Source: Acinetobacter wuhouensis (GTDB lineage Bacteria; Pseudomonadota; Gammaproteobacteria; Pseudomonadales; Moraxellaceae). From it: DNA of 64,000 bases. Under the pieces are notes generated by a model that made no database searches, was not told where the DNA came from, and saw nothing but the letters and a program-made list of their open reading frames with translations. Location: positions 2,604,001 to 2,668,000 of the forward strand of contig NZ_CP031716.1 in NCBI RefSeq assembly GCF_001696605.3, given 5' to 3'. Below, piece by piece: positions 1 through 28,222 of the stretch (position 1 is the stretch's first letter; each line of letters begins with the position of its first letter). Position numbers and translations under genes: made by a program.

Positions 1-2988
1 GCCATAGACACACATATATGCCCCACCAATACCCACAGCATTTTCAGGCGTCCAAGTCCGAGCAGGATTATATTTAGTGGTCACTAAACGCTGACGTGGG
101 TCAAGCGGTGTGGCAACGGGCGCACCGAGATATACATCACCTAAACCCATAACCAAATAGTTGGCACTATACACCACATCTTTAACCGCTTGTTTGGATG
201 CCAAGCCATTGATACGGCGAATAAATTCAACATTATCAGGACACCACGGCGCATCTGGACGTACAATTTGGGTATAACGCTCTGTTGCCAATTGCGTTTG
301 TGAATCTTCCCAAGCCAAAGGCAGATATACTGTTCTCGAAGGAACTTGCATATTGTCAATATTTGGCAATTCAGCTTCTGCTTTTTGAAGCTGCGCCAAT
401 AATTCAAGTTGATCAATTTTGATTGAGTCAAAATGAATCTGTAGTGATCGAATCCCAGGTGTGAGGTCAATAATACCTTGAATATTCTGTTCTTTTACCC
501 ATTGCATCAAGGCATGAATACGGAAACGAAGATTTAAATCAAGGACTAATTCACCATATTCCACAAGTAAATAACTATTTCCTGCAGGACGATAAGTCAC
601 ACTTGGTAAATCATCTTGTCCATCCAATGTCGCCAAAACAGCATCATTTAAGGTCTCCATTTCAGCATGTAAAGATGGATTAAAATCAATCATTGCTGTG
701 TCAGATGCGCTAATACTTTGATGATATTTTTGATCTAGAGCTTTGGCTTGCGCATAACTCACAGGAATGAATTTTACCTTATCACCTGCTTTCAGCTGAC
801 CTATTTTCCAAAGCTCAGAATGGATCACCACCGCAGGGCATACAAAACCACCTAAACTTGGACCGTCTGGCCCGAGAATAATCGGCATATCACCGGTAAA
901 ATCAATTGCGCCAATCGCATAGGCATTGTCATGAATATTAGAAGGATGCAAGCCTGCTTCGCCACCATCCTCACGTGCCCATTCAGGTTTTGGCCCCACC
1001 AAACGAATCCCTGTACGACTGGAGTTATAGTGAATTTCAAATTCATTGGCAAAAAAAGTATCTATATCTTGTTTGGTAAAGAAATCTGGCGCACCATGTG
1101 GACCATACATCACCGCAATGTCCCAACTATGGCTAAAGCTTGGGATATTTTGAGTGTCTAACTGCGTTGACTCTGCTGAGGAATATGCTGTGATCGGCAA
1201 CATATCTCCGATCAATAAATTACGTCCTGCATGACCGCCAAATTGTCCCAATGTAAATGTCGCTTGTGAACCTAAATATTCAGGTACATCAAAACCGCCT
1301 TTAATCCCGATATAACTTCGGCAGCCTGTCATGATCGTACCGCATTTTAAGACCTGACCTTTTTTGACATTGATAGTCTGCCACATCGGCACATTGACGC
1401 CATCAAGTTTTGATGGCATTTCACCACCTGTAATTACAATTTGGCTATCACAATGGAACTTTAAACTTGGCCCCTGCAAGGTACATTCAAGTCCCGCGGT
1501 ATTTTTTGCATTGCCTAATAACTGATTGGCAACGCTTAAACTCAATGGATCAATTGCACCTGATGGTGGTACACCGACATCCCAATAGCCCAAACGTCCA
1601 TCTACATCTTGGATTGAAGTTTGAATCCCTGATTGTAACACTTCAATTTTTTGGGTTTTCCATTCAAAGTTATTTAAAAAACGTGTGGTTTGTGTCCCCG
1701 CTTTAAACACGTCACCATCAACAATATTTTGTAAATATTCAAGATTGGTTTCAATGCCTGCGACTTTCGTTTTTGCCAAAGTGTCAATCATGGCTTGAAT
1801 TGCAGATTCACGACTGTCACTTGTCACGATAATTTTAGCAATCATCGGATCATAAAAAGACGAGACATTTGAACCTGTTTCAACCCATGTTTCATTACGA
1901 GCATGGTCATCAAATTGCACATGCGTCAGTAAGCCTGCACTCGGTTGGAAATTTTTGATCGGGTCTTCAGCATATAAACGTACTTGGATGGAATGACCTT
2001 TTGAACTTAATTTGTCAATCGGTGCAACCCAATCGCCACTGCCTAAAGTGATCATCCATTCAACTAAATCAACACCAAAAACTTGCTCCGTCACACCGTG
2101 TTCTACTTGTAAGCGAGTATTTACTTCTAAGAAATAGAATTCTTGCGTGTCCGTATCCATGACAAATTCAACCGTACCTGCGGAACGGTAATTCACAGAC
2201 TGCATCAGTTGAATCGCAACATCTTGGATATATGCACGTTGTTGATCATTCAAATGCGGTGCAGGGGTTTCCTCTATTACTTTTTGGTTACGTCGTTGTA
2301 CCGAACAATCGCGTTCACCCAAAGCCAGGATTTGTCCCTCACCATCACCAAAAATTTGCACTTCGATATGTCGTGCATTTTGGACAAATTTTTCTAAATA
2401 TAATCCTGCATCTTTGAAATTGGCTTGGGCTAGGTATGAAACAGTTGCGTATGCTTCTTTAAGTTCTTCGGCATTCCACACCAAGCGCATACCAATCCCA
2501 CCGCCACCTGCGGTACTTTTGAGCATGACGGGGTAGCCAATACGCTCAGCTTCAAGCAGTGCTTCTGTTTTATCTACAAGTAATTGACTACCAGGCAATA
2601 AGGGAACATTGGCTTGAATCGCCAATTCACGCGCCGTATGTTTTAAGCCAAATGACTTCATTTGCGCTGAGTTTGGACCTAAAAATACAATGCCTTGCGC
2701 TTCACACAAATCACAAAACTCTGCATTTTCAGAAAGAAAACCATAACCTGGATGAATCGCTTCTGCACCTGTTTGCATTGCGACATCTAAAATCTTATCG
2801 ACATTTAAATAACTTTGACTTGCAGGAGAATCACCAATAAATACAGCTTCATCCGCTAAAGTGACATGTAAGGAATCACGATCAGCTTCTGAATAGACCG
2901 CTACAGATTGAATACCCAACTTTTTAAGTGTACGAATCACTCGGCAAGCAATTGCACCACGATTGGCGATCAGGACTTTATTAAACAT
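1..2988 (-). CDS. uca: Biotin-dependent urea/guanidine carboxylase, partial
   Basis: ATP- and bicarbonate-dependent carboxylase of the urea carboxylase family. The frame is open from ATG 2988 to the window edge (996 codons), so roughly the last 200 residues, including the biotinyl domain, are missing. The N-terminal half is a biotin carboxylase: an ANRGAIACRV start, an ATP-grasp glycine loop GGGGIGM near residue 160, and EVNTRLQVEHG near 286. It is followed by the two carboxyltransferase halves related to KipA and KipI (for example LGPDGPSLGGF). It starts 2 bp after the upstream DUF1989 gene and is the third gene behind a guanidine-I riboswitch. In this context family members carboxylate guanidine better than urea, so guanidine carboxylase is the likelier function. 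That substrate call is inference from context; the enzyme family is certain. Confidence 0.9.
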   Translation of the reverse strand, partial: MFNKVLIANRGAIACRVIRTLKKLGIQSVAVYSEADRDSLHVTLADEAVFIGDSPASQSYLNVDKILDVAMQTGAEAIHPGYGFLSENAEFCDLCEAQGIVFLGPNSAQMKSFGLKHTARELAIQANVPLLPGSQLLVDKTEALLEAERIGYPVMLKSTAGGGGIGMRLVWNAEELKEAYATVSYLAQANFKDAGLYLEKFVQNARHIEVQIFGDGEGQILALGERDCSVQRRNQKVIEETPAPHLNDQQRAYIQDVAIQLMQSVNYRSAGTVEFVMDTDTQEFYFLEVNTRLQVEHGVTEQVFGVDLVEWMITLGSGDWVAPIDKLSSKGHSIQVRLYAEDPIKNFQPSAGLLTHVQFDDHARNETWVETGSNVSSFYDPMIAKIIVTSDSRESAIQAMIDTLAKTKVAGIETNLEYLQNIVDGDVFKAGTQTTRFLNNFEWKTQKIEVLQSGIQTSIQDVDGRLGYWDVGVPPSGAIDPLSLSVANQLLGNAKNTAGLECTLQGPSLKFHCDSQIVITGGEMPSKLDGVNVPMWQTINVKKGQVLKCGTIMTGCRSYIGIKGGFDVPEYLGSQATFTLGQFGGHAGRNLLIGDMLPITAYSSAESTQLDTQNIPSFSHSWDIAVMYGPHGAPDFFTKQDIDTFFANEFEIHYNSSRTGIRLVGPKPEWAREDGGEAGLHPSNIHDNAYAIGAIDFTGDMPIILGPDGPSLGGFVCPAVVIHSELWKIGQLKAGDKVKFIPVSYAQAKALDQKYHQSISASDTAMIDFNPSLHAEMETLNDAVLATLDGQDDLPSVTYRPAGNSYLLVEYGELVLDLNLRFRIHALMQWVKEQNIQGIIDLTPGIRSLQIHFDSIKIDQLELLAQLQKAEAELPNIDNMQVPSRTVYLPLAWEDSQTQLATERYTQIVRPDAPWCPDNVEFIRRINGLASKQAVKDVVYSANYLVMGLGDVYLGAPVATPLDPRQRLVTTKYNPARTWTPENAVGIGGAYMCVYG

Positions 2989-2990
2989 TT

Positions 2991-3644
2991 TTATGCTCCT
3001 TCTGCTTCACGCACGATCAATTGAATTTGAGTTGGATTATAGGCATTACATGGATTATTCAGCTGAGGACAATTTGAAATCAGTACGATTAAATCCATTT
3101 CAGCCTGAATTTCGACGTATTTTCCTGGTGCAGAAATTCCATCATCAAACTTCAATGCACCATCCTCAGTCACAGGAACATTCATAAAAAAGTTAATGTT
3201 TGGTCCGATATGTCTCACATTTAATTCATGTTTTAGTGCAATTGGATGCTTCGCCAAAGCGTACATGAAGTTATTTCGGCAACTGTGCATCGGATACTTA
3301 TCATGTGAATAACGCACTGTATTACTTTCGCATGAACATGCACCACCCAATGTGTCATGACGACCACAATTATCATCATGAATCACAGCGATCGGACGAC
3401 CAAAATTACTATATAAAGTTGTGCCTTTTTCCAAATAAATTTGTTGATTCATCGCCAATGTATCTGTTGCGCTATAACGTTCATCTGGATTTTCAGCACT
3501 GATAAAGAGCGTATCTACAGCCTGATTTCCCTCAAGATCAACAATACGGAAAAATTGCCCTTTTTTAACTTCACACATCCATGCTTCGCCGGCTGGACAC
3601 ACTTCACTGAGCACTGTTTTTTCAAAAGATTGTAAAATTGTCAT
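2991..3644 (-). CDS. cgdB: Carboxyguanidine deiminase-type subunit (urea-carboxylase-associated protein 2, DUF1989)
   Basis: A 217-residue DUF1989 protein, annotated in many genomes as urea-carboxylase-associated protein 2. Proteins of this pair form a heteromeric carboxyguanidine deiminase that turns carboxyguanidine into allophanate. Visible features are the DLEGNQAVDTLF block near residue 36, an HDDNCGRHDTLGGAC stretch near 89-103 rich in potential metal or catalytic residues, and PVTEDG near 157. The central His/Cys-rich segment is better preserved here than in the neighbouring paralogue. It lies 18 bp downstream of the other subunit gene and 2 bp upstream of the carboxylase, so all three are one transcript. 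The cgdB symbol is assigned by gene order and is tentative. Confidence 0.8.
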   Translation of the reverse strand: MTILQSFEKTVLSEVCPAGEAWMCEVKKGQFFRIVDLEGNQAVDTLFISAENPDERYSATDTLAMNQQIYLEKGTTLYSNFGRPIAVIHDDNCGRHDTLGGACSCESNTVRYSHDKYPMHSCRNNFMYALAKHPIALKHELNVRHIGPNINFFMNVPVTEDGALKFDDGISAPGKYVEIQAEMDLIVLISNCPQLNNPCNAYNPTQIQLIVREAEGA

Positions 3645-3662: not shown

Positions 3663-4412
3663 TTAAACATTACTTTCAAGTGCGTAATAACGTGCGTTAT
3701 TTGCATAGGCACGTTGATTTTGCGGACACGAATCACGACAAATATCATGCTCACTCAAAGGCAAAGCTTTAAATAATTGCATATTCACATCGGCAGGTTG
3801 ATAACGATCACTATTGTCTAAGGCATGCGGTGCAGCGGACAGAAATACCAAACAATCCATCTCAAAACGCAGTTCAATCACTTGATTGGTACGATCAGCA
3901 TGGATATATGACAACTCACCACAATCATTGGGAGTAACTTTTGAAAATAAATTGACAGTAGCACTCAAATCTTTTTGAGCGAGTGAGAATTTCGCCATTT
4001 CGACCAATAAGCCATCCAAGCCACTTTGGTACATCTCATTTCGAGCATCTTGAAAGGTACAACTTCCGAACTGCTTTTTAATATATTCAGGACGACTCGC
4101 ACCACAAAAGGCATCGTTCCAACCTTGATCATCATGAATGATGGATGCCATGACACGCCCTAAATCTGAATACAGTGCATGACCTGTCGATAAAAAAGCC
4201 GTATGTTGTCCTTTGAGGCTATCGGGCATGTTGTATCGTTCTAATTGATCTGCTGCATTTACACAGAAGAATGATACGTTGGCATTTTCGCCTAATGATT
4301 TAAATTGGAGTACTGTCCCTTTTTGAATTCGTCCCGACCAATGATGCCCCCCGGGTAAAACTTCACTCCACAAGATTTTGTTATCGCGATATTGATTTGC
4401 ATGTTCGCCCAT
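3663..4412 (-). CDS. cgdA: Carboxyguanidine deiminase-type subunit (urea-carboxylase-associated protein 1, DUF1989)
   Basis: A 249-residue DUF1989 protein (urea-carboxylase-associated protein 1), first gene after the riboswitch. It shares the fold of the next gene: HDDQGWNDAFCGASRPEY near residue 113 matches that protein's HDDNCGRHDTLGG segment but lacks some of its residues, as expected for one half of a heterodimer. The C-terminus adds about 30 residues containing a DICRDSCPQNQ stretch. The start is ATG 4412, with a GAGG Shine-Dalgarno at 4421-4424 that can pair with upstream leader sequence. The proposed role is conversion of carboxyguanidine to allophanate together with its partner; function is inferred from the family and the operon. 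Confidence 0.8.
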   Translation of the reverse strand: MGEHANQYRDNKILWSEVLPGGHHWSGRIQKGTVLQFKSLGENANVSFFCVNAADQLERYNMPDSLKGQHTAFLSTGHALYSDLGRVMASIIHDDQGWNDAFCGASRPEYIKKQFGSCTFQDARNEMYQSGLDGLLVEMAKFSLAQKDLSATVNLFSKVTPNDCGELSYIHADRTNQVIELRFEMDCLVFLSAAPHALDNSDRYQPADVNMQLFKALPLSEHDICRDSCPQNQRAYANNARYYALESNV

Positions 4413-4419
4413 TTGCTCT

Positions 4420-4444
4420 ACCTCATTTAAGGTTAATCCAACCT
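4420..4444 (-). promoter_or_regulatory. Possible translational switch between aptamer and cgdA start
   Basis: Just 3' of the aptamer, AGGTT (4440-4444) can pair with AACCT (4430-4434) around a 5-nt loop. ACCTT (4429-4433) can instead pair with GAGGT (4420-4424), which contains the Shine-Dalgarno of the first gene, around a 4-nt loop. The two 5-bp hairpins exclude each other. There is no U-tract, so control at translation fits better than a terminator. Which state the ligand favours is not readable from the sequence. Confidence 0.4.
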
Positions 4445-4540
4445 CCCGGGCTTTTATCCCTCCGTGTAGCTCAATTGAGCCGTAAACTCTCGGTCACAGC
4501 ACAGCCAATCTTCATTGCGCTGCCGGAACCCTAGTTCACT
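4441..4540 (-). ncRNA. Guanidine-I riboswitch (ykkC-yxkD leader)
   Basis: Read on the minus strand, the leader contains the conserved blocks of the ykkC/guanidine-I aptamer in order: CTAGGGTTCCG at the 5' end (about 4523-4533), GACCGAGAG in the middle (about 4486-4494) and ACGGAGGGATAAAAGCCCGG at the 3' end. The class senses free guanidinium and generally turns on guanidine export or degradation genes. It lies 28 bp upstream of the first DUF1989 gene, and the putative start site of the sigma-54 promoter falls just before it. Boundaries are approximate. Confidence 0.93.
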
Positions 4541-4558
4541 TTATGATGATGAGTAATT

Positions 4559-4574
4559 AGCAAATAGCGTGCCA
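4559..4574 (-). promoter_or_regulatory. Sigma-54 (RpoN) -24/-12 promoter of the guanidine operon
   Basis: The minus strand reads TGGCACGCTATTTGCT, a full match to the sigma-54 consensus TGGCAC-N5-TTGC, with GG and GC elements 10 nt apart. The expected start is about 12 nt further on, near 4548, only some 8-10 nt before the riboswitch aptamer. Sigma-54 promoters need an enhancer-binding activator; nitrogen control (NtrC) is the natural candidate for a nitrogen-scavenging operon, but that is inference. Confidence 0.85.
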
Positions 4575-4700
4575 TTTCAGTATTACGTTTTTTTGTTTTA
4601 GTCGTATTTTTTGAGCTATTCAGGTGCGGGGTTTAATTTTTAATGAGGTTAATGTGCCAACTTTTGGGTCATTTAAATTGAGTTAAATTGTTCAAAATGA

Positions 4701-4722
4701 TGTGCCTTGTCATTTCAGCACA
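4701..4722. promoter_or_regulatory. Dyad upstream of the sigma-54 promoter, possible activator site
   Basis: TGTGC (4701-4705) and GCACA (4718-4722) form an inverted pair about 130 bp upstream of the -24 element, a usual distance for enhancer-binding proteins. It resembles the half-sites of NtrC operators only loosely. Confidence 0.25.
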
Positions 4723-4799
4723 CCATTTTGAAATTTACACACTAGTTATTTTCAAAATGAAATAATTTCAAAAATCAAACATCAGAATTGTGACGTGAC

Positions 4800-5858
4800 T
4801 CAAGGATGAACAATAATTTTAACTGCTGACTCGTTATTGTGAATCAAAGTTTCAAATCCTTGAGCAACCAAATCATCCAGTGCAATTCGTTGGGTAATAA
4901 ACGGTTCTAGATTAATCTTGCCCTGCTCCACCAAACGAATGGTTTCCTGATGATCATTCACATAAGCAATAGTGCCTCGGATATCCAATTCTTTCATCAC
5001 CACGCTATGCACATTGATGGTTGCGGGATGACTCCAGATTGACACGATCACCACGACGCCTGTTGGTTTCATGGCAGCAACCAAGGTATCCATCACTTTA
5101 TTGACACTGCTGCATTCAAAAGCAACATCCACGCCACGATCCTGCGTGATTTTCATCACTTCAGCCACGACATCGACTTGCGAGGGGTCTAATACATAAT
5201 CCGCAACGCCTGCTTCCAGCGCTTTTTCTTTCCGTTTAGCACTGAGTTCAGTGATAATAACTGTCAAACCTTTGGCTTTTAAAATGGCGGATAATAACAA
5301 TCCGATTGGACCTGCCCCACCAACCAGTGCAATATCTCCCGCCTTTGCACCACTTCTAACATAGGCGTGATGACCAACAGATAAAGGCTCAATCAACGCA
5401 GCTTGATCTAAGGGAATATCATTGGAAATCGGATGTACCCAACGGCGTTGCACCGCAATCTTTTCAGACAATCCGCCACCACGCCCACCTAAACCAATAA
5501 AATTCATATCTTTAGATAAATGATAATTGTCATTGGGTCCTGTCGCTACATCATCAGCAATGATATAGGGTTCAACAACCACATGTTGTCCAACCTGAAT
5601 ATCATCCACACCTTCTCCTACAGCATAAACCACACCAGAAAATTCATGTCCCATGGTCACAGGTGCTGACTCTCCTGAAATAGGATGTGGATGCCCACAT
5701 GGTGGTATGAAAATAGGTCCTTCCATAAACTCATGCAAGTCTGTCCCGCAAATCCCACACCAAGCGACTTGTATCCCGACGGTTCCTGCCAAAACTTGTG
5801 GTTCAGGAATATCTTCTATACGAATGTCACCCTTGTCATAAAAACGTGCTGCTTTCAT
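4800..5858 (-). CDS. bdh: 2,3-butanediol dehydrogenase (zinc-type MDR family)
   Basis: A 352-residue medium-chain dehydrogenase that interconverts 2,3-butanediol and acetoin with NAD(H). The catalytic zinc site is present: C37 in CGICGTD and H71-E72 in GHEFSG. The Rossmann motif is GGAGPIG near 178-184. The segment around residues 98-118, where the family usually carries the four structural-zinc cysteines, contains no cysteine. It is the last gene of the aco cluster, 111 bp after lpd. A short-chain acetoin reductase often found at this place in related clusters is absent. Substrate stereospecificity cannot be read from the sequence. Confidence 0.88.
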   Translation of the reverse strand: MKAARFYDKGDIRIEDIPEPQVLAGTVGIQVAWCGICGTDLHEFMEGPIFIPPCGHPHPISGESAPVTMGHEFSGVVYAVGEGVDDIQVGQHVVVEPYIIADDVATGPNDNYHLSKDMNFIGLGGRGGGLSEKIAVQRRWVHPISNDIPLDQAALIEPLSVGHHAYVRSGAKAGDIALVGGAGPIGLLLSAILKAKGLTVIITELSAKRKEKALEAGVADYVLDPSQVDVVAEVMKITQDRGVDVAFECSSVNKVMDTLVAAMKPTGVVVIVSIWSHPATINVHSVVMKELDIRGTIAYVNDHQETIRLVEQGKINLEPFITQRIALDDLVAQGFETLIHNNESAVKIIVHP

Positions 5859-5969
5859 ATTGCTTCCTTCAACATCTTTTTATTGATAAAAATCTGATGG
5901 CTTGTTCTCACAATATTCAGCAATTGAAAATGACGGAACAAGCCTATGATTTAAATGTAAATTGCTCTT

Positions 5970-7370
5970 TTAAATATGAATCGCACGTTGCATCGCTGCC
6001 AATACTGACTCATGCATCGCTTCAGACAACGTTGGATGAGGGAAAATCACCTGTGCCAAACTTTCATCCGTAGCTTCCAAATATTTCGCTATCGCAAAGC
6101 TCTGGATATGTTCAGTCACTTCATGACCGACCATGTGTGCACCCAACAACTCACCAGTTTCCTGATTGAAAATAGTCTTAATAAAGCCTGCTGAGTCACC
6201 CAAAGCCAAAGCCTTACCATTGGCCTGTAAAGGGAACTTCCCTACATTGATACTGTAACCGGCTGCTTTGGCTTTCTGCTCAGTCAAACCAATACTCGCC
6301 ACTTGCGGATGCGTGAAAATACAGCCCGGAATTTGCGTGCGATCCAAAGCATGAACATTGGCAACACCTGCAATTTTTTCTACACATAAAATGGCTTCAT
6401 GACTCGCCTTATGTGCCAAACACGGTGCGCCTGCCACATCGCCGATCGCATAGACACCAACTACATTGGTTTTGCACCATTGATCTACTTTGATAAAGCC
6501 ATTTTCAAATTCAATGCCTAAAGTTTCCAAGCCAAGCTTTTGAGAATTTGGACGTACGCCAATCGCAGACAGTACTTTATCTACAGTGATAACATTAATT
6601 TCTGATGAGGTTTCGACATGACATTGAACTTGACCATTGGTAATTTCAATTTTCTGTACAGCAGCATCCGTCAGAACCTGCATACCCTGCTGTTCAAACT
6701 GTTTTTGTACGTACTTGGCGACTTCCGCATCTTCACTGGGTAATATTTGCTTGGCAATATCGACCAAGGTCACTTGGCAACCTAAATCCTGGTACAAACT
6801 GGCAAATTCACTGCCAATCGCACCTGAGCCAACCACCAAAAGTGACTTAGGCAATTCTTCAGGGATTAAAGCTTCTTTATAGCTCCAAACATACTGACCA
6901 TCGACAGGGACTTGCGGTAAATTGGCAGCTTTAGCCCCTGTCGCCACAATAATATGTGGTGCAGAAATCTGCTGTTTTTGACCTTCAGCATCGGTTAATT
7001 CAAGTTGTTCTTTGGCAATAAATTGCGCCCTTGCGGTAAAAACAGTGACCTGATTTTTTTTCAGCAATTGTCCAATGCCTTGTACCAACTGACTCGATAC
7101 CTGGCGGCTATGCTGTACCAATTGCTGAATATCAAAATCAACCGCACCAACAGTGAAGCCAAACTGACCTGCATGTTTAAGTTGTTGAGCGACCGCTGCA
7201 CCACTCAACAAGGCTTTGGTTGGAATACAGCCCCAATTTAGGCAAATTCCACCCAAATGTTTCTCTTCAACAATGGCGGTTTTCAAGCCCAGTTGGGCTG
7301 CGCGAATCGCAGCCACATATCCACCAGGGCCAGCACCAATGATGATGACATCAAATTGTGTGTCTGACAT
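5970..7370 (-). CDS. lpdA: Dihydrolipoyl dehydrogenase, E3 of acetoin dehydrogenase complex
   Basis: A 466-residue FAD-dependent disulfide oxidoreductase. The N-terminus has the FAD-binding GAGPGGY; the redox pair is C43 and C48 in GGICLNWGCIP; a second Rossmann motif, GSGAIGSEFA, lies near 179; and the C-terminal HPTLSEAMHE carries the catalytic His-Glu of the partner subunit. It reoxidises the dihydrolipoyl arm of the E2 protein encoded 10 bp upstream, yielding NADH. Its place directly after acoC marks it as the acetoin-specific E3, although it could also serve other lipoyl complexes. Confidence 0.93.
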   Translation of the reverse strand: MSDTQFDVIIIGAGPGGYVAAIRAAQLGLKTAIVEEKHLGGICLNWGCIPTKALLSGAAVAQQLKHAGQFGFTVGAVDFDIQQLVQHSRQVSSQLVQGIGQLLKKNQVTVFTARAQFIAKEQLELTDAEGQKQQISAPHIIVATGAKAANLPQVPVDGQYVWSYKEALIPEELPKSLLVVGSGAIGSEFASLYQDLGCQVTLVDIAKQILPSEDAEVAKYVQKQFEQQGMQVLTDAAVQKIEITNGQVQCHVETSSEINVITVDKVLSAIGVRPNSQKLGLETLGIEFENGFIKVDQWCKTNVVGVYAIGDVAGAPCLAHKASHEAILCVEKIAGVANVHALDRTQIPGCIFTHPQVASIGLTEQKAKAAGYSINVGKFPLQANGKALALGDSAGFIKTIFNQETGELLGAHMVGHEVTEHIQSFAIAKYLEATDESLAQVIFPHPTLSEAMHESVLAAMQRAIHI

Positions 7371-7380
7371 GATTATTCTC

Positions 7381-8925
7381 CTACACCAAAATCAATGCAG
7401 GATTTTCAACAAACTGCTTAAAGGCTGCCAAGAATTTTGCACCCAATGCACCATCAATCACTCGATGATCACAGGACAAGGTCGCGGTCACCATTTGACG
7501 TACCACAATCGCATCACCTTCAACAATCGCGCGTTTTTCAGCCGCTCCCAAAGCGAGAATTGCGCCTTGCGGTGGATTGATAATCGCATCAAAGGCTTTG
7601 ATGCCTAACATTCCCAAATTGGAAATGCTGAAACTACCACCCTGGAATTCATCAGGCGCAAGTTTTCCTGTCTTGGCACGTGTTGCCAAATCACGCATAT
7701 CATTGGAAATCTGTGCCAAAGACTTGCTGTTGGCAGATTTAATAATCGGTGTGATCAAACCATTTTCAATCGCCACAGCAACTGAAATATCCGCTTGATT
7801 AAACTGTAAAATTTGCTGATTTTCTTCATCAAACTGTACATTGACCTGTGGCACTTTAACCAATGCTGCCGCAGCGGCTTTGATCAGCATATCGTTAATC
7901 GACAATTTAACCTGTGGCACAGTGGCATTAATTTGCTGTCGTAAGCCCTGAATTGCATCGACATTTAAATCAACCGTTAAACGGAAATGTGGTGCATTAC
8001 GTTTTGCAGCTTGTAAGCGTGATGCAATGGCTTTACGCATCCCATTCATTGGAATCGCTGTAACTTGAGCGGTTTCTGATGAAGTACTCCCTACAGTTTC
8101 AACAATGGTTGGATTTTCACGTTGATAAACAGCTTCAACATCTTCTTTCGATACTCGACCACGTGAACCCGAAGCACGGCAATCATGTAGATTAATCCCC
8201 CACTGTTTTGCCAAACGACGTGCAACTGGGGTTGCTAAAACCTGGCTATCATCCGCTGTAGATTTTGCAACTTTTCCACTCGATTGGTGACGTACATCTG
8301 GCCACGCTCCATCTGCTGCCTGCACTGCAAGTTGAATATCTTTGACACTGATACGACCTTCACGTCCTGAACCTGTGATCTGTGCTAAATTGACATTGTG
8401 TTTTTCAGCCAATTTCAAAGCATGCGGTGTAGTAAATATTTCATCGACCTGCTGATAACCTTGTAAAGTTGCAGGCACTGAATAACCACCTTGCGCAACG
8501 GGTTTGGTTGCTTTTGGCGTACTATTTTGTACAGGTGCAGTCTGAACTTTTGTTTCTATGGTCGCAGTTGTTGTAGTTGCTACTTTTTCAGCGACCACTT
8601 CGGTAGATTTGGTTTCAGTTGCTGCTGTGCTTGATCCACCCAAAGATTGAGCAAATGCTTCAATTTCTGCATCGGACACTTGGCTGTCTGCACAAATGGC
8701 AATGATTCCACCGACAATTAATGTATCACCTGCTTTGGCAATAATTTTGCGTAAAGTACTGTCAAAAGGGGCTTCTAATACATTGACGATTTTTGTAGTT
8801 TCAATTTCACAAATTTCATCGCCTTTATTAAAAGTCGTGCCTTCCTGAATCAGCCATTGGGCAATCGTACCCTCTTCCATCGACAAACCCCATTTTGGGA
8901 TTTCCAAGGTTTTAATTTCGCTCAT
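7381..8925 (-). CDS. acoC: Dihydrolipoamide acetyltransferase, E2 of acetoin dehydrogenase
   Basis: A 514-residue E2 core protein that accepts the acetyl group from E1 and passes it to CoA. Domains in order: a lipoyl domain (1-80) with lipoylated Lys45 in IETTKIVN; a Thr/Ala/Val-rich linker (about 98-150); two peripheral-subunit-binding domains (about 165-201, TPHALKLAEKHNVN, and about 229-266, TPVARRLAKQWGIN); and the acyltransferase domain ending in the catalytic CDHRVIDG. Two binding domains in one E2 chain are unusual in number. The gene sits 1 bp after acoB and 10 bp before lpdA. Its lipoyl domain is the likely substrate of the neighbouring lipoyl synthase. Confidence 0.93.
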   Translation of the reverse strand: MSEIKTLEIPKWGLSMEEGTIAQWLIQEGTTFNKGDEICEIETTKIVNVLEAPFDSTLRKIIAKAGDTLIVGGIIAICADSQVSDAEIEAFAQSLGGSSTAATETKSTEVVAEKVATTTTATIETKVQTAPVQNSTPKATKPVAQGGYSVPATLQGYQQVDEIFTTPHALKLAEKHNVNLAQITGSGREGRISVKDIQLAVQAADGAWPDVRHQSSGKVAKSTADDSQVLATPVARRLAKQWGINLHDCRASGSRGRVSKEDVEAVYQRENPTIVETVGSTSSETAQVTAIPMNGMRKAIASRLQAAKRNAPHFRLTVDLNVDAIQGLRQQINATVPQVKLSINDMLIKAAAAALVKVPQVNVQFDEENQQILQFNQADISVAVAIENGLITPIIKSANSKSLAQISNDMRDLATRAKTGKLAPDEFQGGSFSISNLGMLGIKAFDAIINPPQGAILALGAAEKRAIVEGDAIVVRQMVTATLSCDHRVIDGALGAKFLAAFKQFVENPALILV

Positions 8926-8926
8926 C

Positions 8927-9946
8927 CTAAGCCTCCAAAGTTTTACGTACAGCCTGTTCGATACGTTCTACACTTGGTAACCATTCTTTTTCCAATACAG
9001 GCGAAAATGGTACTGGCGAGTGTGGTGGCGTAACCAATTCGATTGGCGCTTTGAGATAATAAAAACCTTTTTGTGCAATCAATGCTGCGACATCATGCCC
9101 AAAACCACAACGTGCTGCAGACTCATCCACAATCACCACACGACCTGTTGAAGCAACAGATTCCAAAATCCCTTCTTCATCGAGTGGAGAAATGGTACGT
9201 GGATCAACTACTTCAACTGAAATGCCTTCTTTGGCTAATTTATCCGCAACTTCATTGGCACGATGCACCATTAAACTCAGCGCAATAATTGTGACATCAG
9301 TGCCTTGGCGTGTGTAATTTGCCACACCGAATGGAATGGTATATGCACCATCTGGCACTTCGCCTTTGATGTCATACAACAGTTTATGCTCACAGAACAC
9401 CACAGGATCGTCATCACGAATCGCTTGAATCAATAAGCCTTTCACATCGTAAGCACTCGATGGCACCACGACTTTTAAGCCTGGTACAGCCGCAAAAACG
9501 TTATAAGGTGACTGTGAATGTTGCGCTGCTGCCGAGAAACCTGCACCGATCATGCCACGTACCACCATTGGTGCTTTAGCTTTGCCCCCAAACATATAAC
9601 GGAACTTGGCTGCTTGGTTATACAACATGTCATGACACACGCCGTAGAAATCCATAAACATCAAGTCCGCTACTGGACGTAAACCTGTTGCAGCAGCGCC
9701 TGCTGCCATTCCTATAATTGCCGATTCGGTAATCGGGGTATCAATTACACGCTCAGAACCGAACTCAGTCCACAAGCCTTTGGTCACACCGAGTACGCCA
9801 CCAAAGCCTTCCAATTTATTGTCATCGGTATTTTTACCGCCATGACCACCACGAACATCTTCACCCACCACGATCACACTTGGATCACGGCGCATTTCTA
9901 ATTCAATCGCTTCTTTAATCGCATTTCGATAACTTTTATTTGGCAT
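8927..9946 (-). CDS. acoB: Acetoin dehydrogenase E1 component, beta subunit
   Basis: A 339-residue transketolase-like beta subunit of the thiamine-diphosphate-dependent E1 enzyme. The start resembles other E1-beta chains (IVVGEDVRGG near 25-34), followed by DTPITESAIIGMAAGAA near 89-106, which includes the glutamate that activates the cofactor, and a C-terminal transketolase domain with VVDPRTISPLD. With AcoA it cleaves acetoin, releasing acetaldehyde and passing the acetyl unit to the lipoyl arm of AcoC. It starts 15 bp after acoA and ends 1 bp before acoC. Confidence 0.94.
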   Translation of the reverse strand: MPNKSYRNAIKEAIELEMRRDPSVIVVGEDVRGGHGGKNTDDNKLEGFGGVLGVTKGLWTEFGSERVIDTPITESAIIGMAAGAAATGLRPVADLMFMDFYGVCHDMLYNQAAKFRYMFGGKAKAPMVVRGMIGAGFSAAAQHSQSPYNVFAAVPGLKVVVPSSAYDVKGLLIQAIRDDDPVVFCEHKLLYDIKGEVPDGAYTIPFGVANYTRQGTDVTIIALSLMVHRANEVADKLAKEGISVEVVDPRTISPLDEEGILESVASTGRVVIVDESAARCGFGHDVAALIAQKGFYYLKAPIELVTPPHSPVPFSPVLEKEWLPSVERIEQAVRKTLEA

Positions 9947-9961
9947 TGCTTTACTATTCCT

Positions 9962-10924
9962 TTAGTAAGAGACGTAAACATCGGTAAGCAGTTGAGAGAC
10001 TTCTGGATAATTGGCAGCACGGGCTTTTGCAACCGCAGCATCTACATTGGCTTTTGACTCTGCATCAATCGCATCCAGTTTGGCTTCATCAATTTTTCCT
10101 TTGACTTTTTCACGGAAGATTTTCAAAGGATCTTTATGCTCTTTGACATAATCAAGTTCTTCCTTAGAGCGGATCAAACCTGGATCACCTTCGAAATGTC
10201 CATAAAAACGGTTGGTTACGCTTTCAATCACACTTGGACCTTCGCCACGGCGTGCACGCTCAATCGCTCTTTGTGCAACCTCATACATCGCAAAGAAATC
10301 AGTACCATCTACTTTTTCCGCAGGCATACCAAAGGCTGCTGCACGTCCTGCAATATCTTTGCTACCGACCGCATAATCATGTGCTGTACCTTCACCAAAA
10401 CCATTATTTTCAAAGACAAAAACCACAGGCAATTTTAAAACCACAGCCATGTTCATCGCTTCAAACGTCAAGCCTTGATTCGAGCCACCATCCCCTGTAA
10501 AGGACAAACCAATTCCGCCTGTTTTAAGAGTTTTGGCCGTCAACGCAGCTCCAATCGCCAATGGTGGACCACCACCGACAATCCCGTTTGCACCGAGCAT
10601 GCCTTTGTCCAAATCGGCAATATGCATTGATCCGCCCTTGCCGCGGCAAAGTCCGTCATCTTTACCAAAAATTTCCAACATCATGCCGTGGATATCACAA
10701 CCTTTGGCAATACAGTGTCCATGACCACGATGGGTAGAGGTGATAAAATCTTTATCCGTTAAATTTTCACAAATCCCCACCGCAACGGCTTCTTCACCGC
10801 TATAAAGATGAATAAAGCCAGGAATATCGCCTGTATTATTTTCATCATGTAGACGATCTTCAAACTCACGAATATCTCGCATCCGTCGATATGCTGCTAG
10901 CAATTGCTCTTCCGTTAATTGCAT
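9962..10924 (-). CDS. acoA: Acetoin dehydrogenase E1 component, alpha subunit
   Basis: A 320-residue E1-alpha chain and first gene of the aco operon. The thiamine-diphosphate motif is intact: GDG at 144-146 (GDGGSNQG), closing with N173-N174 in ENNGFG; the substrate-pocket stretch STHRGHGH is at 63-70. A clear Shine-Dalgarno, AAGGA, lies 8 nt before ATG 10924. The upstream 359 bp is very AT-rich and shared with the divergent lipA paralogue. I found no sigma-54 promoter there, although aco operons in several other bacteria use one with the activator AcoR. Confidence 0.94.
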   Translation of the reverse strand: MQLTEEQLLAAYRRMRDIREFEDRLHDENNTGDIPGFIHLYSGEEAVAVGICENLTDKDFITSTHRGHGHCIAKGCDIHGMMLEIFGKDDGLCRGKGGSMHIADLDKGMLGANGIVGGGPPLAIGAALTAKTLKTGGIGLSFTGDGGSNQGLTFEAMNMAVVLKLPVVFVFENNGFGEGTAHDYAVGSKDIAGRAAAFGMPAEKVDGTDFFAMYEVAQRAIERARRGEGPSVIESVTNRFYGHFEGDPGLIRSKEELDYVKEHKDPLKIFREKVKGKIDEAKLDAIDAESKANVDAAVAKARAANYPEVSQLLTDVYVSY

Positions 10925-25250: not shown

Positions 25251-28222
25251 ACTTTAAACTGCCTACATGGCAGTGAACCAGTTTATTTCTCTCTCATTGT
25301 GCCAAATACATTTCTAAGCTGCCTACATGGCAGTGAACCCAAATATTCACGAGAGGGAATATCACCCCATTTTCTAAGCTGCCTACATGGCAGTGAACGC
25401 GGTGCTACATACTGCGAAAGACCGCCTCAATTTCTAAGCTGCCTACATGGCAGTGAACCACTATGGCGGCGCAATGTTCACGTCTACATTTTTCTAAGCT
25501 GCCTACATGGCAGTGAACTTGCTGAAAGTCTGGTTTACTCGTTTAGAAATTTTCTAAGCTGCCTACATGGCAGTGAACACCACTGGTTTAATGGTGATAT
25601 TCGCGATTATGTTTCTAAGCTGCCTACATGGCAGTGAACATTAAAATATGCACAAGTTCACTATCTCTTAAATTTCTAAGCTGCCTACATGGCAGTGAAC
25701 CAAAGAATCATCAACTGGATCTTTATATCCTTTTTCTAAGCTGCCTACATGGCAGTGAACACTGCAAGATCGCCCAAAAGGCTTTCTGTTAAATTTCTAA
25801 GCTGCCTACATGGCAGTGAACTGCTTAAGTCTTTTAAAAAAGAGATTCCTGCTTTTCTAAGCTGCCTACATGGCAGTGAACATTTGCTGTGCTTCATAAA
25901 TATCAACAACACATTTCTAAGCTGCCTACATGGCAGTGAACTACATCGCTAAGCGAATTGCTTTGATGCCTTTTTTCTAAGCTGCCTACATGGCAGTGAA
26001 CTCGGACTTAATAATCTTAAATATTTTTCCACTTTTCTAAGCTGCCTACATGGCAGTGAACGTTTTCCGAGTTTTAAAACGACATTTTCCGATTTTCTAA
26101 GCTGCCTACATGGCAGTGAACTGCAACTTATACAAATGATGAAATTCATCTAATTTCTAAGCTGCCTACATGGCAGTGAACCCGTCAAAGTCATCATGTG
26201 CAATATCGACACGTTTCTAAGCTGCCTACATGGCAGTGAACCTGTTTGTGTTGCTGCACTAATGAGATTACGTTTTCTAAGCTGCCTACATGGCAGTGAA
26301 CTTACAGATTATTGTACGCATAGAAGTCTTACTTTTCTAAGCTGCCTACATGGCAGTGAACCACCCGATGGAATGTTCTTAACTTGGGCGCATTTTCTAA
26401 GCTGCCTACATGGCAGTGAACCACCCGATGGAATGTTCTTAACTTGGGCGCATTTTCTAAGCTGCCTACATGGCAGTGAACATAGAAATTGCTTGGCATG
26501 CTGTGACAATCACTTTCTAAGCTGCCTACATGGCAGTGAACCTCCGCACTATCAGGAAGCGATGTGTACATTATTTCTAAGCTGCCTACATGGCAGTGAA
26601 CTGTAAGCCCATCGACATTCACGTCATCCCATTTTTCTAAGCTGCCTACATGGCAGTGAACTTGAAAGTCGCACCGCGTCATGTTGCCCTTGTTTTCTAA
26701 GCTGCCTACATGGCAGTGAACTCGGACTTAATAATCTTAAATATTTTTCCACTTTTCTAAGCTGCCTACATGGCAGTGAACGGTTTTCGCACTGTTATAC
26801 TAATTGTTCCATCTTTCTAAGCTGCCTACATGGCAGTGAACATTTAGAGTGGCAACCGCAACCAGTTTCAAGCTTTCTAAGCTGCCTACATGGCAGTGAA
26901 CGTAAATCAAACATGCCTACTTTAGTTGATTCATTTCTAAGCTGCCTACATGGCAGTGAACGTCGAGATATAGACCCGATATAGAACTTTAGGTTTCTAA
27001 GCTGCCTACATGGCAGTGAACAGACGATAAAAGTGTTCTCGAAGCTATCGAACTTTCTAAGCTGCCTACATGGCAGTGAACGCAACAAGTAAACCGATAT
27101 AAGTCAAAATATCTTTCTAAGCTGCCTACATGGCAGTGAACGCAACAAGTAAACCGATATAAGTCAAAATATCTTTCTAAGCTGCCTACATGGCAGTGAA
27201 CAGCAATTCTTGCTCTTTATCATTCATTCTTACTTTCTAAGCTGCCTACATGGCAGTGAACCTCTTCATACGATAAAAGCCCGCAACACGGCGTTTCTAA
27301 GCTGCCTACATGGCAGTGAACTAATCAATTGCGTATAAAAAAGCCACCATTAATTTCTAAGCTGCCTACATGGCAGTGAACAAGTCAGACTGAAGTCAAT
27401 CTTTATACGAACATTTCTAAGCTGCCTACATGGCAGTGAACGAATATCAAATCAGTTCTTTAAATTAAATTGATTTCTAAGCTGCCTACATGGCAGTGAA
27501 CTGATGTATAGAATGCGCTGAATTGCGTTTTAATTTCTAAGCTGCCTACATGGCAGTGAACCCGAAAATTACTTGATAGGTTTCCCAAAACAGTTTCTAA
27601 GCTGCCTACATGGCAGTGAACCATCAAAAAGATGAAAAATCATTTTGGGATAATTTCTAAGCTGCCTACATGGCAGTGAACGCCACATTGACAAAGATCA
27701 GCGACCAATCTATTTTCTAAGCTGCCTACATGGCAGTGAACACAGCAACACCGTTATGCGGACTTATCCATCGTTTCTAAGCTGCCTACATGGCAGTGAA
27801 CGCCAGATGGAGTTGTAATTGTGTCGTCATTAATTTCTAAGCTGCCTACATGGCAGTGAACGTTACTGGCACGCAAAGTGATCCAGTTAAGATTTTCTAA
27901 GCTGCCTACATGGCAGTGAACATCCTGATGGTTGTTTTTATCTGAAAGTCGTTTTTCTAAGCTGCCTACATGGCAGTGAACTGCCAATCCATCATAGGCG
28001 CAACGGATATACGATTTCTAAGCTGCCTACATGGCAGTGAACCCCAAGATGTTTTTGATGCTCATTTTGATGCATTTCTAAGCTGCCTACATGGCAGTGA
28101 ACGAATGATGTAGCAAAAACACTCGATCTGACATTTTCTAAGCTGCCTACATGGCAGTGAACTTGGAATAAGTGTTTTATAGGGATGGTTGGCATTTCTA
28201 AGCTGCCTACATGGCAGTGAAC
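25251..28222 (-). CRISPR. Type I-F-like CRISPR array, 50 repeats and 49 spacers, no cas genes in window
   Basis: The 28-nt repeat read on the minus strand is GTTCACTGCCATGTAGGCAG followed by CTTAGAAA, the palindrome (CTGCC..GGCAG) and 3' handle of subtype I-F. I count 50 repeats with 32-nt spacers, except a few of 33 nt (for example ending at 25611, 25672, 25793 and 28014). The leftmost repeat (25251-25278) is degenerate in its last 10 nt, so the trailer is on the left and the leader on the right. Identical spacers occur at 26362 and 26422, at 27082 and 27142 (adjacent pairs), and at 26002 and 26722 (720 bp apart). Both flanks are ordinary chromosomal genes (tRNA-Asn and miaE); no csy, cas1 or cas2-3 is present. 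Small ORFs across the array are artefacts of the repeat. Confidence 0.98.

Follow-up and report, generated by a model that had tools for sequence, protein, structure and literature searches.

A sigma-54-type promoter element conserved before guanidine-I riboswitches in Acinetobacter and other Pseudomonadota, with a NikR-like protein as candidate third control

A sigma-54-type promoter element lies directly before the guanidine-I riboswitch of Acinetobacter wuhouensis, on a 64,000-nucleotide stretch of the genome (referred to as the window), and the same pairing of element and aptamer is found in every Acinetobacter leader read and in most leaders from other Pseudomonadota. The promoter is termed P1. 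We regard as quite probable the overall explanation that P1 is a sigma-54 promoter which feeds a guanidine-I riboswitch operon, with a NikR-like protein as a third control in Acinetobacter.

In the proposed mechanism, RpoN polymerase would wait at P1 until a nitrogen-type activator, most likely NtrC, opens it, and only then would the leader be made. The nascent leader would fold the guanidine-I aptamer, and in the presence of guanidine the carboxylase operon would be expressed by way of the riboswitch. A NikR-derived RHH protein would add repression, through an operator at -45 of P1 and operators over +1 at two further promoters, P2 and P3. P2 would drive the regulator's own operon and P3 an ABC transporter (no riboswitch was found at either), and the NikR-like protein would respond to guanidine or a breakdown product.

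Promoter P1 and the riboswitch leader

The -24/-12 element of P1, TGGCAC-GCTAT-TTGC (TGGCACGCTATTTGC), is at positions 4574..4560 of the minus strand and is an exact consensus match, as claimed in an earlier note on this DNA, which described a full-consensus TGGCAC-N5-TTGC. It has the GG at -24, the GC at -12, the fixed spacing and the flanks of a sigma-54 promoter. Element and aptamer are on the same strand and in the right order, with 25 nt from the element to the aptamer CTAGGG. The predicted +1, counted 12 nt downstream of the -12 C (4560), is at about position 4548; it is 3 nt 5′ of the start of the RF00442 model and 9 nt 5′ of the first pair of the aptamer's P1 helix, in agreement with the start about 10 nt before the aptamer that the earlier note proposed.

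The exact TGGCAC-N5-TTGC sequence occurs once in the 64-kb window, at P1. At one mismatch or fewer there are 10 sites against 5.49 in shuffled sequence, and the nine one-mismatch sites were set aside as near noise for this reason. In the 3.96-Mb genome the exact sequence TGGCAC-N5-TTGCW is found 10 times (2 times for the reversed control), and two of these 10 sites are in the guanidine locus. RpoN is encoded in the same genome (TIGR02395, 520.3 bits; cut-off 277.35 bits). A sigma-70 promoter for the leader was also considered; the sole sigma-70-like match on the leader strand between positions 4300 and 4900 is at 4843..4816, with none near +1, and this candidate was dropped.

The aptamer (positions 4545..4441, minus strand) gives 71.7 bits with RF00442 over the full model, 1–107 (gathering score 63), and is present as a single copy in the genome. 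By this covariance score it is a guanidine-I riboswitch, predicted to bind guanidinium, which bears out the guanidine riboswitch named in the earlier note. No second riboswitch over the gathering score was found in the guanidine locus. A candidate translational expression platform is at positions 4420..4444 of the minus strand. It consists of AGGTT (4444..4440), AACCT (4434..4430) and a GAGGT Shine-Dalgarno sequence (4424..4420), which are mutually complementary by sequence; similar triplets are seen by eye in a number of relatives. Since a scan of positions 4300–4900 found no terminator-like site, and since this set of segments could mask or expose the ribosome site, riboswitch control is probably at translation. 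The switch is presumed to be of ON polarity.

Three open reading frames on the minus strand follow the leader. Two encode subunits of carboxyguanidine deaminase with the DUF1989 domain (PF09347): UAAP1 at 3663..4412 (TIGR03425, 269.7 bits, cut-off 205.95) and UAAP2 at 2991..3644 (TIGR03424, 309.1 bits, cut-off 284.7). The third, a urea/guanidine carboxylase, is at 1..2988 and extends beyond the window to L140:19383, L140 being the 20 kb to the left of the window in the same genome (TIGR02712, 1608.9 bits, positions 1–1001 of 1201). The matches to TIGR02712, TIGR03424, TIGR03425 and PF09347 support the prediction that the operon serves guanidine use.

Conservation of the pairing in Acinetobacter

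A sample of 149 Acinetobacter genomes contained 85 with RF00442, and all 85 leaders were read, that of the window included. TGGCAY-N5-TTGC is present just before the aptamer in 85 of 85 leaders, which come from related genomes and are not independent; 43 have TGGCAC and 42 have TGGCAT. The distance from the end of the element to CTAGGG is 23–28 nt, with one leader at 42 nt. At one mismatch or fewer, dinucleotide shuffles yield 0.07 elements per 85 leaders; there are none on the antisense strand, nor in any of the 85 stretches taken about 1.3 kb upstream. The view of the earlier note that the pairing would not arise by chance is upheld by this comparison. The conserved blocks of the leaders sit in otherwise variable DNA, and the DNA further upstream varies.

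The pairing outside Acinetobacter

Leaders from other genera were drawn from 369 genomes of the class (29 with RF00442) and 398 genomes of the phylum (43 with RF00442); both counts include the window's own genome, and three further genomes are common to both. The sample consists of 90 different non-own aptamers of Pseudomonadota. An element with at most one mismatch, with GG and GC intact, is present within about 110 nt upstream in 66 of the 90 leaders, and is exact in 16 of these. When three sub-threshold aptamers are left out, the count is 66 of 87 leaders over the gathering score. For the first 85 leaders scored, shuffles give 0.49 per 85 (3 at most in any of 200 runs), and the controls give 0/85 (antisense), 1/83 (far upstream) and 0/85 (downstream).

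The earlier note had raised conservation of the -24/-12 element in relatives, and the element is indeed kept, within the genus and in the majority of leaders beyond it. The distance differs between leaders: outside Acinetobacter, 16–23 nt or 44–95 nt separate the element from CTAGGG. Leaders of one family in the window's own order often have TTCGC for TTTGC, which was scored as one mismatch. An element with at most one mismatch is absent from 24 of the 90 leaders. Six non-Acinetobacter leaders have UAAP1 as the first gene; one of these has the element at one mismatch or fewer, and two more have it at two mismatches.

A pattern scan of named genomes with the longer spacing found at least 118 stretches. 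The matches listed include Raoultella, Buttiauxella, Enterobacter, Pectobacterium and Alcanivorax, as well as Psychrobacter, Cupriavidus, Herbaspirillum and Stutzerimonas. Nine of the longer-spacing stretches were examined for RF00442 and eight are over threshold; the other is from Spirochaetales. These matches, together with the counts outside the genus, indicate that the predicted sigma-54/guanidine-I pairing is a widespread design and not a quirk of the window. The Spirochaetales stretch, a MAG contig (L307), displays a sigma-54/CTAGGGTTCCG pattern without RF00442 over threshold.

The type of gene downstream was considered as a predictor of the element, i.e. assimilation versus export. By tblastn on 89 leaders, a pathway gene (substrate-binding protein, UAAP or permease) lies downstream of 61 of the 65 that have the element and of 18 of the 24 that lack it. 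Since gene type hardly predicts the element, the split rests on three exporter-like cases, and the proposal was dropped. These are the three sub-threshold RF00442 leaders, which precede open reading frames resembling EamA-type transporters (by eye) and have no element. Guanidine-I leaders at five other loci (L103, L108, L116, L117 and L172) precede open reading frames of about 400 aa with a common HHPxF...GWK start, and several of these leaders are in divergent riboswitch pairs. These open reading frames are possibly guanidinases.

Candidate activator of P1

NtrC is encoded in the window's own genome (TIGR01818, 745.8 bits against 558.6) and has receiver, sigma-54 and Fis-type domains. Upstream DNA, roughly -50 to -220, was scanned for NtrC-like dyads (TGCAC-N7-GTGCA with at most two mismatches). 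Outside Acinetobacter the scan covered 64 promoters, i.e. those of the first 85 leaders that have the element at one mismatch or fewer and enough upstream DNA. Dyads are found upstream of 34 of these 64 promoters, compared with 7.65 in shuffles and 5/63 far upstream, and upstream of 36 of the 85 Acinetobacter promoters, compared with 4.4 in shuffles and 1/85 far upstream. Most are 70–155 bp before +1. In the window there is a weak NtrC-like dyad, CGCACCTGAATAGCTCA, at positions 4612..4628 of the minus strand, centred at about -72, with mismatches at 3 of 10 positions; a relative (L075) has a dyad with two mismatches. A genome-wide search with the E. coli-type NtrC pattern gave 90 matches against 59 for the reversed control and was too noisy to define a regulon.

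In an RNA-seq study of a B. cenocepacia ntrC mutant, the accessible part of the paper gives a six-fold lower level for BCAS0272, a 'urea carboxylase', while the neighbours BCAS0269 (transporter protein) and BCAS0271 ('aminomethyltransferase') are entered as 'na(m)', a mark that the table note relates to the number of reads from the mutant (PMC5491218). It is our reading that BCAS0272 and its neighbours are guanidine genes of a homologous operon. NtrC is the most likely activator of P1.

A 28-bp dyad at P1, P2 and P3

A second conserved sequence, GTAWTAC-N14-GTAWTAC, is directly upstream of the -24 element in Acinetobacter. It is perfect in 61 of the 85 leaders and has at most two mismatches in 14 positions in 78 of 85, compared with 0.12 in shuffles. 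The offset of the dyad is shared by 82 of the 85 leaders, that of the window included. The window's copy, a candidate NikR-like operator of P1 (positions 4580..4607, minus strand, centred at about -45), has an intact right half (GTAATAC, 4586..4580) and a degenerate left half (ATACGAC, 4607..4601); seven leaders, this one included, have three mismatches.

Ten loci, not all of them independent species groups, were read further downstream and contain 28 dyads at two mismatches or fewer. Of these, 27 adjoin a -24/-12-like element with two mismatches or fewer, and the one at L200:3087 has none. Seven of the 27 promoter-linked dyads are at P1 and the other 20 are two per locus, at P2 and P3, which are sigma-54-type promoters of the same locus. 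The P2 and P3 dyads are centred at +8 to +15, i.e. over about +1. In L140, P2 precedes the NikR-like gene, an allophanate hydrolase and a binding protein, and P3 precedes an ABC permease and ATPase; P2 is directly before the NikR-like gene in 10 of 10 loci. Among the matches listed for 19 related genomes there are seven perfect dyads, all in guanidine loci. The one-mismatch dyad was rejected as a genome-wide signal, as it is not commoner than the reversed control in these 19 genomes.

No clear NtrC sites were found at P2 and P3; five of 20 have a match at two mismatches or fewer (0.82 expected), and three of these five are on a terminator-like stem (by eye). Two small open reading frames are present nearby on the minus strand of L140. 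One, at L140:17991-18116, has 41 residues (MNNPHPQAKK...) and is between P2 and the NikR-like gene; start codons are seen by eye at this place in other species too. The other, at L140:18355-18813, has 152 aa and a sub-threshold TetR_N match, and is between the carboxylase and P2.

The NikR-like protein

The NikR-like protein has 144 residues and contains NikR_C (PF08753, 64.4 bits against 22). It matches NikR chains in the PDB, in a profile comparison too; all five NCBIfam NikR models match below their cut-offs, the best at 94.4 bits against 105. The square-planar nickel ligands of NikR are His, His, His and Cys. Aligned to 2bj1, the NikR-like protein reads Gln80, His91, Gln93 and Ile99 at these sites, and appears to have lost three of the four nickel ligands. 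The third and fourth sites are Gln and Ile in 40 of 40 copies from 37 genomes; three of the copies have His at the first site, two of these with Ser at the second, and His91 is kept in 38 of 40. An AlphaFold model gave a pLDDT of 58 and was not used as evidence.

A full-length NikR-like gene is present in 81 of the 85 riboswitch genomes and in none of the 64 others of the 149. Three of the remaining riboswitch genomes have no match (G053, G081, G121) and one has a broken gene (G064); the guanidine locus itself looks broken by eye in two of these four. G018, a genome without the riboswitch, shows two partial matches. The operator is still perfect in two of the four genomes that lack an intact gene, and it is poor in five that have the gene, including the window's. 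Decay of the operator on loss of the gene was considered, and the counts of poor operators (2/4 against 5/81, p 0.03 when kinship is ignored) are suggestive only. Among the best 120 of 379 homologs, every named organism is an Acinetobacter. Among the matches listed for a locus protein, the nearest from named species belong to A. wuhouensis (96%) and A. gerneri (93%).

The operator of E. coli NikR, GTATGA-N16-TCATAC, spans 28 bp and has the same layout as GTAWTAC-N14-GTAWTAC. The NikR-like protein is the best candidate for the repressor, and possibly a protein sensor of guanidine metabolism; it would probably bind the dyads and repress P1 and the two further sigma-54-type promoters. The two-input AND gate of the earlier note, nitrogen limitation for transcription and guanidine for the RNA switch, remains a likely reading of promoter and riboswitch, in accordance with the conserved pairing and with the genes for RpoN and NtrC in the genome, but it is incomplete, as the NikR-like operator at -45 makes a third input likely in the genus.

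Alternative explanations

P1 may be sigma-54-dependent and yet be fired by an enhancer-binding protein other than NtrC, in which case the second input would not be nitrogen limitation. We consider this unlikely. Such a protein could be one of three more matches to the NtrC model in the genome, which span its AAA+ part, and could bind, for example, a strong 15-bp inverted repeat with a 12-nt loop at positions 4691..4732 (minus strand, about -163), which is a candidate activator site or an end-of-operon hairpin. The weakness of the NtrC-like site in the window and the lack of clear ones at P2 and P3 point the same way. However, the inverted repeat is not visible in the consensus of the upstream alignment, and this promoter shows an upstream enrichment of NtrC-like dyads both in and outside the genus. 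The operon is moreover one of nitrogen assimilation, and its presumed B. cenocepacia homologue is NtrC-dependent in the part of that study available (PMC5491218). NtrC remains the preferred activator. Far less probable still is a vestigial -24/-12 element, with the leader made mainly by read-through from an upstream acetoin-type operon or from a sigma-70 start. A same-strand gene does end at position 4800 with no terminator-like site between 4300 and 4900, but all 85 genomes retain the element though the DNA further upstream varies, and the scan found no sigma-70 match near +1.

The dyad may instead be bound by another protein, or the NikR-like protein may be an activator, or may still sense metal. 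These variants, taken together, are rather unlikely, though somewhat less so than an activator other than NtrC. At P1 the dyad is upstream of -24, a possible position for an activator; one of the four metal ligands, His91, is nearly always retained; and binding of the NikR-like protein to the dyad is itself predicted. Against this, the dyad has the architecture of the E. coli NikR operator, the gene and the dyads share a locus, with P2 just before the gene in each of the ten loci, and the P2 and P3 dyads cover about +1 as a repressor would. Repression by the NikR-like protein is preferred on these grounds.

A further step is more speculative, and we put it forward tentatively as a possibility: that the NikR-like protein gave up nickel and became a transcription factor sensing guanidine (or carboxyguanidine/allophanate), and that at two promoters it stands for the second guanidine riboswitch of other bacteria. 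If so, guanidine would be sensed in the locus both through RNA and through protein, and a single sigma-54 nitrogen gate would stand over the two.

Relation to known systems

A serial arrangement of this kind is known from the nasF leader of Klebsiella oxytoca, where an Ntr/sigma-54 promoter is in series with an RNA-level gate operated by antitermination by the protein NasR. The locus described here would have the same series of sigma-54 promoter and RNA-level substrate gate, but the gate would be a metabolite-binding riboswitch rather than a protein. The -24/-12 element, the UAS-like dyads (enriched across relatives but weak in the window) and the nitrogen-scavenging genes are as in the NtrC/sigma-54 nitrogen regulon. 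The nickel-responsive NikR repressors (2bj1, 1q5v) have the same RHH and NikR_C domains and a 28-bp dyad operator; the regulator here differs in that three of the four nickel ligands appear replaced and its presumed targets are guanidine genes, not nickel uptake.

COG3665 is equated here with DUF1989, an assumption of ours. A 2025 sigma-54 survey predicted 102 COG3665 genes to be sigma-54-regulated, 59% of them annotated as urea carboxylase, in the part of the paper available (PMC12316311). The term 'guanidine' has no match in the accessible text of that survey or of the ntrC mutant study (PMC5491218), and 'riboswitch' is found there only in one reference title. In the accessible text of a review (PMC12186494), the terms 'sigma' and 'NtrC' have no match. 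This text describes guanidine-I carboxylase operons, e.g. in Raoultella terrigena, with the same aptamer class, the same operon content and guanidine as nitrogen source. The second, carboxylase operon of Raoultella has a guanidine-II riboswitch (PMC12186494), whereas the locus described here has no second riboswitch over the gathering score and has NikR-like operators at the other two promoters. A guanidine-II riboswitch is also present in the R. ornithinolytica locus, and RF01068 is in the same 8-kb locus in five of nine named genomes examined. It is tempting to suggest that the NikR-like protein replaced this second riboswitch.

Also considered and set aside was a different 'urea carboxylase' locus, the A. 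baumannii mum operon, which includes a Mn transporter; the accessible text has no 'riboswitch' or 'CopG' (PMC5050338). No link between NikR and bacterial urea carboxylase was found in the accessible part of a nickel genomics paper (PMC2667541). In Alcanivorax, dRNA-seq showed that Rfam-annotated RNAs, a guanidine-I riboswitch included, mainly have their own start sites, according to the part of the paper available (PMC9788540). A search of open-access titles and the beginnings of abstracts found no link of sigma-54 or of NikR to guanidine among the matches listed, which does not prove that none exists. The parts described here are of known kinds, and sigma-54 control of these genes had been predicted earlier, without the riboswitch; the measured pairing and the tied, nickel-ligand-poor NikR relative were not met in the open-access literature searched.

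Most studies treat a riboswitch separately from its promoter. Here one class of riboswitch has the same sigma-54 promoter before it in 66/90 sampled leaders outside Acinetobacter and in 85/85 within the genus, which suggests that guanidine use is handled as nitrogen scavenging, and that reporters with a constitutive promoter would miss part of the riboswitch control. The NikR-like protein provides a named candidate for a guanidine-responsive regulator protein.

Two other loci in the window should be noted. An operon resembling acetoin dehydrogenase/butanediol dehydrogenase (by eye) is at positions 4800-10924 of the minus strand; its end is some 225 nt before the -24 element, with both on one strand, and read-through is possible. 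A CRISPR array with 49 repeats matching CRISPR-DR4 is at positions 25311-28222 of the minus strand.
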